64,000 bases of DNA from Paenibacillaceae bacterium (GTDB lineage Bacteria; Bacillota; Clostridia; Lachnospirales; Lachnospiraceae). This document shows, piece by piece, positions 7,063-10,734 of the stretch. Position 1 is the first letter of the stretch, and every line of letters begins with the position of its first letter. The DNA lies in NCBI GenBank assembly GCA_015057705.1, contig SVDU01000001.1, positions 186,001 through 250,000 of the forward strand, in the 5' to 3' direction. The position numbers were made by a program, and so were the translations under genes. The notes under the pieces are model-generated. The model worked only from the letters and a program-made list of their open reading frames with translations. It ran no database searches and had not been told where the DNA came from.

Positions 7063-9222
7063 ATGATGTGGAAACGATTAGGAAAGGGGAAAAAAATACG
7101 GTTAGGAAACGGGGGCAGATTTACACATCTTTCAACAAGAATTGCATTTATGGCTGGAATTATGCTGGTGGTTGTATTTGGTATGTTAATCGGATTTACA
7201 TCCCGAATGACAAAGCGCGCGATGCAGCAGTCAGCATTTGGGGAACTAAAAACCCTGGCATCAGAAAACGGGAAAGATATCCAGCAGATCTTTGATACAG
7301 CAAACCAGGTATCCAACCGGATCACCTATTATCTGGAAAACTCATCGGATAACAGAAAATTAATGCTGAGTCTTAGGATCAAGTCAGGTAATACGGCGGA
7401 GCCGTTTTATAAAAGCCGGATATCAGACAAAGTAACACTGGATACCAATGGAATGAGAATTGAAGACTATATGATTTCAACCATTCGATCCTCTGTTATG
7501 TATTCTGAGGATATTAAGGGTATCAGTATTATGTTCGAGCAGTACGGGCTGAGTTCGGCTGCCAGAAGCTACGGAATCTATTCCAGCCAGGATGGAACTG
7601 TTACAAGCTGTGGTAATTATGAAGATTACTCATCAAAAGACTATTATCAGAAAGTGCTGGAGACGGGAGAGCGGGTTATTACAGAGCCTTATGAGTCAAA
7701 TGGTGGGATGATTATTACCATGGCAGTGCCGGTAAGTGTCAATGACAGGATGCTTTGTGTGGTTTCTGTGGATGTGGGACTGGACCGGTTCAGCCAGGTA
7801 AAAACAGCCGCTTCCTATCCAAGTATGTTCACCTTTATTCTGAATGAAGCCGGAACCATCATATCTGAAAGTACGGGAAAAGGACTTGCCGGAACCAATG
7901 TATCTGATTTTGTCAGCACCAAATCCTGCAAGGAAGGAATAAAAGCAGGAGTTTCATCAGGAGAAGCGTTTCATGTAATTGATGGAGATCGTAAGGGACA
8001 AGTATATTATTTTTTTGAGCCAATCCAGTTAAACGGTTCCATCTGGTATTCTGTTACAGCGGTAAATGCCGGCGATATGAACCGGGAGGCTGAACGTATG
8101 GCTACCCTGATGACAGTCATATCTGTGGCAGCCATGATCATAATTTTGTTTATGATCACTGCAGTTATAAAGAAACAGTTAAAGCCCTTACATAAGTTAT
8201 CTGCAGCAGCGGAACAGATTGCAGAGGGAGATTTAAGTGGATTTTCCGGAGTGGAATCAAGAGATGAGATCGGTCAGACTGCGAAGTCCTTTGAGCAAAT
8301 GTCGTCGAATTTAAAAATAATTATTGACCGGATTTCCCTGGCTCTTCATGAGATTTCGGACAATCATCTGGATCTGGATGTGGATATGGGGCTGTCCGGA
8401 GATTTCTTCAAACTGGAAGAAGCAGTAAAAAAAATCACGTTAAACTTAAATGCAGTTATGTATGAAGTGAATCAGTCAGCCGGTCAGGTAGCTGCAAGTT
8501 CGGGTCAGGTAGCAGAGGGGTCCAAGGTTTTGGCAGATGGAGCAGATGCCCAGGAAAAAACCATTGAGCTGCTGTCAGGATCCGTAAATCATGTGTCTGG
8601 AAATATTAAGAAGCTGGCCGAAAAAGCTGGAGATGTTTCCATGCAGGTTCAGCAGACCGGGACCGAAGTGGTAAACTGTGATATGTCCATGCAGAACTTA
8701 TCAAAAGCCATGGATGAAATACGTGTTTCTTCCGGAGAAATTGAAAAAATTATTAAAGTAATTGAAGACATTGCTTTTCAGACCAATATTCTGGCATTGA
8801 ATGCAGCCATCGAAGCTGCCAGAGCCGGAGAATTTGGCAAAGGCTTTGCAGTGGTTGCAGGTGAAGTAAGAAACTTAGCTGCCAAGAGTTCAGAGGCTGC
8901 AAAGAATACAACAGACCTGATTCAGAGTTCCATATCGGCTGTTGAGAATGGAAACAGTCTTTTGAATGAAACTGCCAACTCTCTGATGAAGGTGTTAGAG
9001 GATTCGGCTATGGCAGTGGAAGCAGTGGACTCCATTTCTGCAGCTGCAGGGAAGGAAGCCAAAGCAGTAGAAGAGATAACAAAAGAACTGGACCGGATAT
9101 CTTTAGCAGTCCGCAACAATTCAGCCACAGCAGAGGAAAGTGCTGTTTCCAGCCAGGAACTTTCCAGACAGGCTCAGCTATTGCGTGAATTGGTGGAACG
9201 ATTCCGATTAAGAACCGAATAG
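7063..9222 (+). CDS. Methyl-accepting chemotaxis protein with extracellular Cache-type sensor
   Basis: Transmembrane chemoreceptor of 719 aa. The frame is open from ATG 7039, but GGAAGGGGGA lies 7 nt before ATG 7063, so that start is preferred. Order: first transmembrane helix ([18 protein letters not shown]), a large extracellular region of about 280 residues of double-Cache type, second helix ([18 protein letters not shown]), HAMP domain (about 370-420), and a cytoplasmic signalling hairpin whose tip ([20 protein letters not shown]) lies near residues 567-586. It follows the sugar operon and may sense a related compound; this is inference. A strong terminator follows. Confidence 0.95.
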
Positions 9223-9224
9223 AG

Positions 9225-9274
9225 GGAAAACGCAGAGCGAAAATTAACATTTAACTCTGCGTTTTCCTTTTTTT
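9225..9274 (+). terminator. Rho-independent terminator of the first chemoreceptor gene
   Basis: A perfect 13-bp stem (GGAAAACGCAGAG at 9225-9237 with CTCTGCGTTTTCC at 9255-9267) is followed by seven T residues. Confidence 0.95.
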
Positions 9275-9411
9275 CGACAGAAAACAGCAAAAATTGTCTT
9301 AATCTAATCGAAAATATATTCTGCATTTATATAAAATAATACATATATAATCTAAATAATTATATGCAATTTAAAAATTAACAATTAAGTTATAAAATAA
9401 ATAAAAGTATA

Positions 9412-9440
9412 TTGACAAATAACGGAATACAGGCTATAAT
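9412..9440 (+). promoter_or_regulatory. Perfect consensus sigma-A promoter of an orphan transcript
   Basis: TTGACA (9412-9417), a 17-nt spacer and TATAAT (9435-9440) match the housekeeping consensus at all 12 positions, with an A/T-rich upstream stretch. It is the best promoter in the window, yet no substantial protein-coding frame follows it. It drives the candidate RNA at 9447-9821. Confidence 0.9.
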
Positions 9441-9446
9441 TATGAC

Positions 9447-9821
9447 ATAACAAAGGGAAACCAAAGTTACAAAGAAGAGGAAATCTAATGAAAGGAGGTA
9501 CAGTCCACCAGAAAGAGCAGATCCGTTTCATTTAAAGAATGAAACAAAAAGCCCCCACACAATCTACCGATGTGAAGGACCAGTGGAGACGAATCAATTG
9601 AATGAAGCACTACAAGATTCGTAGTAAAACAAAAGATGAATCCATTTAGAAACTGGTTGTAGCAACGGAGAGCGTAAAAAATTTATATAGAGCATGTTTA
9701 ACACATACATAATTTGTAAGTAAACATGAGATGGAAAAGAGGTATTGATTCCAATGGACGAGATAATATAGAAAGGGATATCGATGATAAATCAACAATC
9801 GGTATCCCTTTCTATCTGTTT
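9447..9821 (+). ncRNA. Candidate structured non-coding RNA, about 370 nt
   Basis: A transcription unit with a perfect promoter and a strong 3' hairpin but no long reading frame; the largest plausible one is 15 codons at 9488-9535. Local stems are visible: GTTTCATT/AATGAAAC (9525-9532 with 9538-9545), ACGAATC/GATTCGT (9589-9595 with 9616-9622), and CATGTTTA/TAAACATG (9693-9700 with 9721-9728). ACTAC/GTAGT (9609-9613 with 9621-9625) would compete with the second stem. The next gene is convergent, so this is not a riboswitch for it. Large clostridial RNAs such as the raiA motif are possible relatives, but I cannot match this to a named family from memory. Confidence 0.65.
9770..9821 (+). terminator. 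Terminator hairpin at the 3' end of the orphan transcript
   Basis: AGAAAGGGATA (9770-9780) pairs perfectly with TATCCCTTTCT (9803-9813). The stem extends through CGAT/ATCG (9782-9785 with 9798-9801), and ATCTGTTT follows. It lies between convergent units and may also stop the radical SAM gene on the other strand. Confidence 0.75.
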
Positions 9822-10734
9822 AATCGATGATAATCCCTTCTAAATCAAACGGCGGTGTATATTCTTCCTTTGCACTGCTTTTTTCCTGCATAAATCCCTG
9901 CACCAGATCCAGTTCAATGGCTTTGTTTAGAACCTTATTGTATTCATATGAGGTGATTCTGCGGTTGATTTCCGGATACTGAACACTTTTATAGAACGGA
10001 GTGTACTGACTTAACAGGCTGATATAATACATTCCTTTTTCCAATTCATCCTTTATCCAGGAAAGCAGAGCAATAGAATCATCTTTTGCTCCCGGAAGAA
10101 CCATGTGGCGTATGATTACACCCTTTTCCATCAGTTCACCGGAGGGGTCAAACCGGGGAGCCCCGGTCTGGCTGATCATCTGTTTAATGGCTTTTGAAGC
10201 TTTCTCAAAATAATCGGCTGCATTGCTATAACGGGCAGAGAGGGCACTGCTTTTATATTTTAAATCAGGAAGCCATATATCCACATACCCATCCAGTGCT
10301 TTAATCACTTCTGCTGATTCATATCCGCCGCAGTTGTAGACTACCGGAATGGAAAGTTTTGATTTAATAAGATCCAGGACTTTCAACACAGATGGAAGGT
10401 ACTGTGTGGCAGTTACCAGATTGATGTTGTGGGCACCCTCATCCTGAAGTTTTAAAAATATCCTGGAAAGCTGTTCTACTGTCAGTTCTCTGCCAAAATG
10501 TTCCTGGCTGATGGAGCAATTCTGACAAAAGCAGCAGCGCAGGGTGCAGCCTGAAAAAAAGACGGTTCCGCTTCCCCGGCTTCCACTGATACATGGTTCC
10601 TCCCAGTGATGGAGGGCAGCGCGGGCAGCCATGACTGTATCTGTGCAGCCGCAGTATCCAGTGCTTTGCCGGCGGTTAACGTTGCAGTTTCTGGGACACA
10701 GACTGCATGAATCATACATATCGTCAAAGTTCAT
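9820..10734 (-). CDS. Radical SAM protein, PflX/pyruvate-formate-lyase-activase-like
   Basis: 304-aa cytoplasmic radical SAM protein. The motif CTLRCCFC supplies the CxxxCxxC cysteines for the [4Fe-4S] cluster that cleaves S-adenosylmethionine. A cysteine-rich stretch before it (CSLCPRNC and GYCGC) is typical of the COG1313 PflX group, whose substrate is not established. The frame is open from a TTG at 10758, but ATG 10734 has AGGAG 8 nt upstream and is preferred. It is divergent from azlCD. The neighbours do not identify a partner enzyme. Confidence 0.85.
   Translation of the reverse strand: MNFDDMYDSCSLCPRNCNVNRRQSTGYCGCTDTVMAARAALHHWEEPCISGSRGSGTVFFSGCTLRCCFCQNCSISQEHFGRELTVEQLSRIFLKLQDEGAHNINLVTATQYLPSVLKVLDLIKSKLSIPVVYNCGGYESAEVIKALDGYVDIWLPDLKYKSSALSARYSNAADYFEKASKAIKQMISQTGAPRFDPSGELMEKGVIIRHMVLPGAKDDSIALLSWIKDELEKGMYYISLLSQYTPFYKSVQYPEINRRITSYEYNKVLNKAIELDLVQGFMQEKSSAKEEYTPPFDLEGIIID

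Follow-up and report, generated by a model that had tools for sequence, protein, structure and literature searches.

The stretch of DNA analyzed here (the window) comprises 64,000 nucleotides (nt) of contig SVDU01000001.1 from a genome that GTDB places in the Lachnospiraceae; the genome is of the Lacrimispora type, and its closest relatives are Lacrimispora. Between a gene for a methyl-accepting chemotaxis protein (MCP), which ends at 9222, and a convergent radical-SAM open reading frame (ORF) on the minus strand, which ends at 9820, positions 9412-9825 almost certainly hold a real RNA gene that belongs to a genuine family of non-coding RNAs (ncRNAs). The hallmark of the family is a repeated core, GAGGUAYRGUCCA, present in one to six copies per locus. 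The principal features of the gene are the following:

9412..9440, plus strand: sigma-A promoter TTGACA-N17-TATAAT, a 12/12 match, with the -35 box at 9412-9417 and the -10 box at 9435-9440.
9447..9825, plus strand: ncRNA, approximate extent of about 370 nt, with the presumed start about 7 nt past the -10 box and the end after the terminator.
9481..9528, plus strand: type A element, to which the covariance model R1 gives 50.5 bits at exactly these positions (the model derives partly from genus relatives).
9739..9771, plus strand: type B element, consisting of GAGGU (9739-9743) and the mini-ORF AUG GAC GAG AUA AUA UAG (9754-9771, MDEII and stop), based on the sequence and on B copies in relatives.
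9768..9815, plus strand: terminator hairpin of 18 bp followed by CTGTTTAATC, with 18 pairs kept in 14/14 sequences and one compensatory G-C/C-G exchange split 7:7.

An earlier note on this DNA had described the promoter as perfect, the roughly 370 nt behind it as free of any long reading frame and the next gene as convergent, and all three observations hold. Among ORFs of at least 40 amino acids (aa), only three overlap 9441-9819 (41, 48 and 50 aa), and these are antisense without exception. Its conclusion that this is an ncRNA gene and no cis-acting leader agrees with the BLASTN conservation of the RNA in 17 of the 25 genus genomes (own genome included) and with flanks that differ between genera. 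The 15-codon frame at 9488-9535, which the note had set against its RNA reading, is not conserved in homologues: its ATG is found in 7 of the 17 genus sequences (the window and L003-L008), and the remaining 10 read ACG or AAG. A coding ORF at this place is rejected on account of this loss, and the RNA reading stands. No conserved reading frame indicative of a small protein-coding gene is seen, the sole persisting frame being the very short terminal one. Within the genus, 23/25 genomes possess the radical-SAM neighbor, and the element adjoins it in 17 of these 23 (R1, E ≤ 4.2e-8); at the other six loci there is no element, and the 600 nt beside the radical-SAM gene are different DNA by inspection. 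The genus locus therefore looks like one vertically kept locus that is absent in some members.

The earlier note overlooked the repeated element and the terminal mini-ORF. For the family, a scan of GTDB genomes with the pattern GGAGGTACRGTCCACC returned at least 119 stretches, 59 of which were selected because record title and intergenic context marked them as Lachnospiraceae-type; five of the remaining 60 represent Lacrimispora loci already included, and the others were judged to be chance matches that mostly fall in coding sequence from other groups. L040, L043, L051 and L052, family loci that have no core copy, were excluded, and the set used for counting holds 100 loci, of which 91 are distinct and 9 are repeat records. 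Near the reference copy of these loci, 193 copies of GAGGTAYRGTCCA with at most two mismatches are present on one strand only, with 0 on the other; 93 of them remain after removal of the copy that placed each locus, and exclusion of the repeat records leaves 179 copies in 91 loci. By this two-mismatch rule, two copies occur in 34 loci, three in 7, four in 10 and six in 3, and a single copy in 46. This last class is over-counted, since in the window's genus the terminal B copy has diverged too far to satisfy the rule.

Two types of copy can be distinguished. In type A, an extended Shine-Dalgarno sequence (AAAGGAGGU) is followed 8 nt on by CC and not by a start codon; type B is usually the last copy, just before the terminator, and has AUG or UUG and a mini-ORF of 5-7 codons. 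After the core, 130 of the 193 copies continue with CC or AC (type A), 57 with ATG, TTG or GTG (type B) and 6 with neither. The type A element of the window, the only stretch in it that matches with at most two mismatches, contains the start-less extended Shine-Dalgarno sequence GAAAGGAGGU (9490-9499) as well as GGAGGUACAGUCCACC (9494-9509). The first copy lies at a median of 46 nt from the presumed 5' start (n=92, range 27-129), tandem copies are mostly 50-65 nt apart, and RNAs with a recognized terminal B copy have a median length of about 358 nt (n=45, 223-750). A strong hairpin lies downstream of the terminal B copies, with a median of -29.3 kcal/mol over +10..+90 (n=46) compared with -14.1 kcal/mol 200 nt further on (n=45). 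Their frames, with the start codon read as M, encode MDSIV, MDEIV, MDNEF, MDTELE and MDVETVV, among others, and close with TAA, TAG or TGA; E. ramulus (L082) and a small number of others have internal copies with M-K-stop, M-R-stop or M-G-stop. A palindrome UCCA/UGGA in type B was considered and rejected, as an A or G at core position 9 breaks it (L058, L060). A promoter matching at least 10/12 positions lies no more than 170 nt ahead of the first copy in 93/96 loci, and a 12/12 promoter does so in 57/96, the mean of shuffled sequences being 8.7; five of the 101 loci (window counted) had too little upstream sequence for this count, as had five of the 100 for the copy positions. High expression, as proposed in the earlier note, is plausible from these promoters.

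The type A copies are complementary to the tail of 16S ribosomal RNA as found in two relatives, G017 from the same genus and G059 from elsewhere in the Lachnospiraceae (GGAUCACCUCCUUUCU / GGAUCACCUCCUUUCUAAGGA). In the window, GAAAGGAGGU is complementary to this tail over 10 nt, and at -21.8 kcal/mol the predicted duplex of the A copy is stronger than any other found when every second position on both strands of the 64 kb is examined. Median duplex energies of non-redundant copies are -18.7 kcal/mol for type A (n=24) and -14.9 for type B (n=37), compared with -6.4 for shuffles; by position, the medians are -19.0 kcal/mol for the 5'-most copies (n=95), -17.8 for inner copies (n=46) and -14.6 for terminal B copies (n=45). 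The frame set by the start position is enriched in stop codons. For type A, 61/71 non-redundant copies have a stop within codon 7 of this frame, compared with 27 and 37 in the other frames and with 29, 27 and 32 in the three frames of control stretches 60 nt further on. The corresponding count for type B is 23/29, with 15 and 14 in the other frames and 9, 11 and 11 in the controls.

Sequence comparison thus establishes a conserved gene with strong promoters, repeats, complementarity to the 16S tail, a dichotomy between copies with and without a start codon, and an enrichment of stops in the start-position frame. The explanation favored here, which we consider evenly poised between right and wrong, is that of an abundant RNA that docks 30S ribosomal subunits and thereby gains stability, titrates the subunits, or both. 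The RNA has a stand-alone gene and is probably trans-acting and abundant, and its working parts would be ribosome-docking sites. At the 5' type A sites, a very strong Shine-Dalgarno sequence with CC in place of the start codon would allow a 30S subunit to bind via the 16S tail without being able to initiate. The 3' type B site, which is weaker and has AUG or UUG and a 5-7-codon ORF ending at the terminator, would provide a minimal start and stop. Idle 30S subunits would park on the RNA and shield it against nucleases; provided that it is abundant, the RNA would also titrate 30S subunits or the capacity for initiation. Abundance, 30S binding and a physiological effect are what we infer. As part of the docking explanation, the RNA might be a ribosome decoy, a possible but tentative proposal in which a highly transcribed RNA would capture free 30S subunits and park ribosomes or limit initiation, and the terminal minigene would release the subunits.

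Several observations weigh against 30S docking. The window's own draft genome gives 0/1 match to the 16S-tail pattern, the tail being taken from relatives, and 16S was found in only 2/4 genomes searched. The Shine-Dalgarno part of type B is GAGGU only and of ordinary strength, the spacer between GAGGU and AUG is 10 nt in the window and its genus compared with 8 in most other copies, and a 1-nt deletion in L011 alters the end of the mini-ORF. In the full-length predicted fold of 9447-9826, GGAGG is placed in a small hairpin. The first stop lies beyond codon 7 in 6/29 non-redundant B copies, and within codon 3 type B has 14 stops in frame +1 compared with 7 in the start frame. Since the type A stop is mostly one UAA at a fixed place (41/71), it may be an RNA motif and not a stop codon, and the enrichment of stops alone does not prove a reading frame. 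On the scale of the family, 246/397 Lachnospiraceae genomes are without an R1 match. Finally, and most importantly, UAYRGUCCA and the CC behind it are nearly invariant and as conserved as the Shine-Dalgarno part, although ribosome docking alone needs neither; conservation beyond the Shine-Dalgarno sequence perhaps points to a further partner, which might be a protein, or would fit a hairpin.

A protein partner is central to an unlikely, if serious, alternative, in which GAGGUAYRGUCCA is the site of some RNA-binding protein that is titrated by the copies. The extension of conservation past the Shine-Dalgarno part would suit such a sponge, as would the one to six copies per locus with their tandem spacing and a possible GG.GG/CC.CC hairpin with an A-A mismatch that is kept in 14/14 genus sequences. 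The 16-mer hairpin is weak, however (-2.5 kcal/mol, in another register), and its pairs are invariant, so that no covariation is found. A protein site would also predict neither the start/no-start dichotomy nor the frame of the stops, and no mRNA target set is seen in 8 genus genomes, where the exact core has 6 other matches compared with 16 for a reversed control pattern. A full-length complementary partner or a shared mRNA motif was likewise rejected, as the exact core elsewhere is no commoner than the reversed control.

If the protein were CsrA, the RNA would act in the manner of CsrB/RsmZ, which are stand-alone sponge RNAs, often with tandem GGA-containing elements. Such RNAs resemble the one described here in being stand-alone and in their often tandem copies of a GGA-containing element; AAAGGA occurs in type A and AUGGA in many type B copies, and CsrA is encoded in 25/25 genus genomes. 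Across the family, however, CsrA (E ≤ 0.001) does not co-occur with the element, being found in 75/151 genomes with it and in 135/246 without it (odds ratio 0.81, P=0.35). Moreover, L082 and L137 each have three internal copies that lack GGA, and the RNA has no Rfam match, unlike CsrB/RsmZ. A CsrA sponge is thus unsupported and can be regarded as extremely improbable.

A Shine-Dalgarno sequence without a start codon is also the mark of STAB-SD, the 5' stabilizer of Bacillus mRNAs reportedly described by Agaisse and Lereclus in 1996. STAB-SD sites belong to mRNA leaders and, like the RNA here, have close to the 5' end an extended Shine-Dalgarno sequence that no start codon follows; in the window, extended complementarity to the 16S tail (the tail of the two relatives) is found near the 5' end without a start codon. 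Unlike STAB-SD leaders, the RNA stands alone, has up to six copies, and carries the conserved UAYRGUCCACC and a terminal mini-ORF. The Shine-Dalgarno elements might merely stabilize the RNA, and its function would then lie in the variable middle, for instance in base-pairing with mRNAs, which we consider rather doubtful. The strongest copy is indeed the first, close to the presumed start, and 46/100 loci have a single copy by the two-mismatch rule. Furthermore, transcripts without start codons can be stable when they have a strong Shine-Dalgarno sequence, as reported in a review (PMC7509114). However, tandem internal copies and a terminal mini-ORF go beyond the needs of a 5' stabilizer, and the middle is, by inspection, the least conserved part between genera.

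The position of the mini-ORF bears on a further explanation, a short mRNA or an attenuator leader, in which the 5-7-residue peptide would be the product or its translation would control the terminator. A mini-ORF with a Shine-Dalgarno sequence directly ahead of the terminator, with its stop codon within the terminator stem, would be in keeping with this. It is nevertheless highly improbable: the next gene in the window is convergent, downstream genes vary between genera (GH3 in L060, L103, L132 and L167; YkuD, NUDIX, LDH, DegV and radical SAM elsewhere), the peptide is scarcely conserved past M-D, and the start codon is missing from most copies. The last point also separates the RNA from minigenes, which are very short ORFs with a Shine-Dalgarno sequence; terminal copies such as MDSIV-stop and some internal M-K-stop or M-R-stop copies are minigene-like, but their carrier is an ncRNA.

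The earlier note had also proposed a large structured RNA comparable to the raiA motif, closed by an 11-bp terminator-like hairpin. The hairpin is confirmed and its length is corrected to 18 bp (9768-9785 with 9798-9815); its 5' arm contains the stop codon of the mini-ORF, and the T-tract is weak in the window (CTGTTTAATC) and better in some relatives (CTGTTTTTTA). A terminator scan overlooked it because its loop is 12 nt and the scan was restricted to loops of 3-8 nt. The comparison with a large structured RNA is weakened, as there is no Rfam match and the fold without the terminator is only moderately above shuffles. The region 9447-9826 folds at -87.1 kcal/mol (z -4.96, 0/100 shuffles as good), and z drops to -2.43 for 9447-9765 (2/100 shuffles as good), so that the terminator supplies much of the folding excess. 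In the fold predicted for 9447-9765, the A region is single-stranded. Two further helices are as follows:

9525..9545, plus strand: local hairpin GUUUCAU/AUGAAAC with 7 pairs, one of them a compensatory C-G/U-A exchange split 7:7.
9563..9671, plus strand: long-range helix of 13 pairs between UCU-CCG-UGU-ACCA (9563-9582) and UGGU-GCA-CGG-AGA (9654-9671).

For 14 of the 17 genus sequences (L006-L008 were omitted as near copies), RNAalifold predicts 52 pairs in 8 helices, with 99.3% of cells paired compared with 38-46% in slid controls. Five of the 52 pairs change on both sides (shuffle mean 2.6; 11/500 shuffles reach 5), and 28 compensatory cells are counted compared with 9.9 in shuffles (0/500 reach that number); further pair types amount to 18, below the 20.1 of the shuffles. 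Because four of the five compensatory pairs split 7:7 or 7:6 at one clade boundary and the fifth occurs in one sequence, independent compensatory events are few. Covariation support is thus moderate for the hairpin 9525-9545, a small hairpin at 9706-9718 and the terminator. Among the 14 genus sequences, no compensatory support is found for the long-range helix, whose pairs are 98-100% paired with one-sided changes only and one unpaired cell, or for the A hairpin. Family-wide conservation is that of a short repeated sequence and a terminal mini-ORF, not of an elaborate fold. A second block in the window, AGAGCGUAAAAAAUUUAUAUAGAGCAUG (9669-9696), is conserved in similar form as far as Hungatella and other relatives. 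Separately, L031, L034 and L178 share a conserved stretch in the middle of the RNA, approximately UAUAUGACGAGAAAGUAU (columns 346-363 of alignment A3), which is absent from the window copy.

The distribution of the element was followed with R1, a 48-position covariance model for type A, built from 73 copies (alignment A2 takes 73 of the 82 selected copies). At E ≤ 0.01, this model, itself built from members of the Lachnospiraceae, matches 151/397 genomes (38%) and 132/334 genera of the family. In a class-wide sample of 291 genomes, four match, namely three Lachnospiraceae and one weak outsider (E 0.007), and the element appears essentially confined to the Lachnospiraceae, as far as sampled. 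A BLASTN search against the Lachnospiraceae, which the earlier note had suggested, matches 30/397 genomes, many at the same short stretch. In G167, G169, G255, G261, G308, G373, G390 and G419, R1 matches lie on different contigs or at far-apart sites, and perhaps more than one RNA locus is present. A mobile element was rejected: no match was found in plasmid or phage records, and 0 viral contigs contain the exact 19-nt pattern.

The flanking genes vary across 12 relatives' loci, with MCP/radical SAM, DpaA/YkuD, HAD/NUDIX, LDH, DegV and integrase/Schlafen as neighbors; since they differ from genus to genus, the RNA probably acts in trans. In the window, a terminator-like inverted repeat (GAAAACGCAGAG...CTCTGCGTTTTC, 9226-9275) followed by a T-run lies behind the chemotaxis gene and separates it from the RNA gene. 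In one Lachnospiraceae genome, a TwoAYGGAY RNA (L167:4432-4598, minus strand; RF01731, clan CL00106, 122.7 bits) is located upstream of and divergent from the RNA.

Type III toxin-antitoxin RNAs consist of tandem repeats that immediately precede a toxin gene in the same orientation. This identity was rejected, as the neighbor in the window is the convergent radical-SAM gene; type III toxin families are also absent among 20 flanking genes from 12 of 18 loci. The raiA motif RNA is likewise an orphan RNA of Clostridia, but its anatomy differs and no raiA is among the Rfam matches at E ≤ 10 for 9223-9900. These are 10 in number and all well under the gathering scores. With curated thresholds, the 4227 models of Rfam 15 give 0 matches in the window, and in 16 relatives' loci they find five tRNAs, one 6S RNA and one TwoAYGGAY RNA, none of which overlaps the RNA; the Rfam search proposed in the earlier note thus returned no family that matches it. 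In L060, L103, L132 and L167 (4/12 loci examined), the first long ORF behind the RNA is a co-oriented gene for a glycoside hydrolase of family 3 (GH3). In Clostridium phytofermentans, one article describes an unnamed orphan ncRNA, reported as the strongest initiation site, downstream of the glycoside hydrolase gene cphy2658 (PMC5171806). Because of the GH3 genes, this ncRNA may be the same RNA. No description of the RNA was found in the literature by title or abstract start, with term searches covering the main text of PMC11109978 and PMC8040213.

The element is present in 38% of the sampled Lachnospiraceae genomes, and no Rfam family covers the RNA. If 30S docking is true, the RNA would be a natural stand-alone RNA that targets the anti-Shine-Dalgarno sequence. 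To our knowledge, such targeting is otherwise known only from mRNA stabilizers, and by title or abstract start no stand-alone RNA of this kind was found in the literature. In the gut of humans and ruminants, the Lachnospiraceae form a major family, and, if the decoy proposal is true, the RNA would tune translation in this family.
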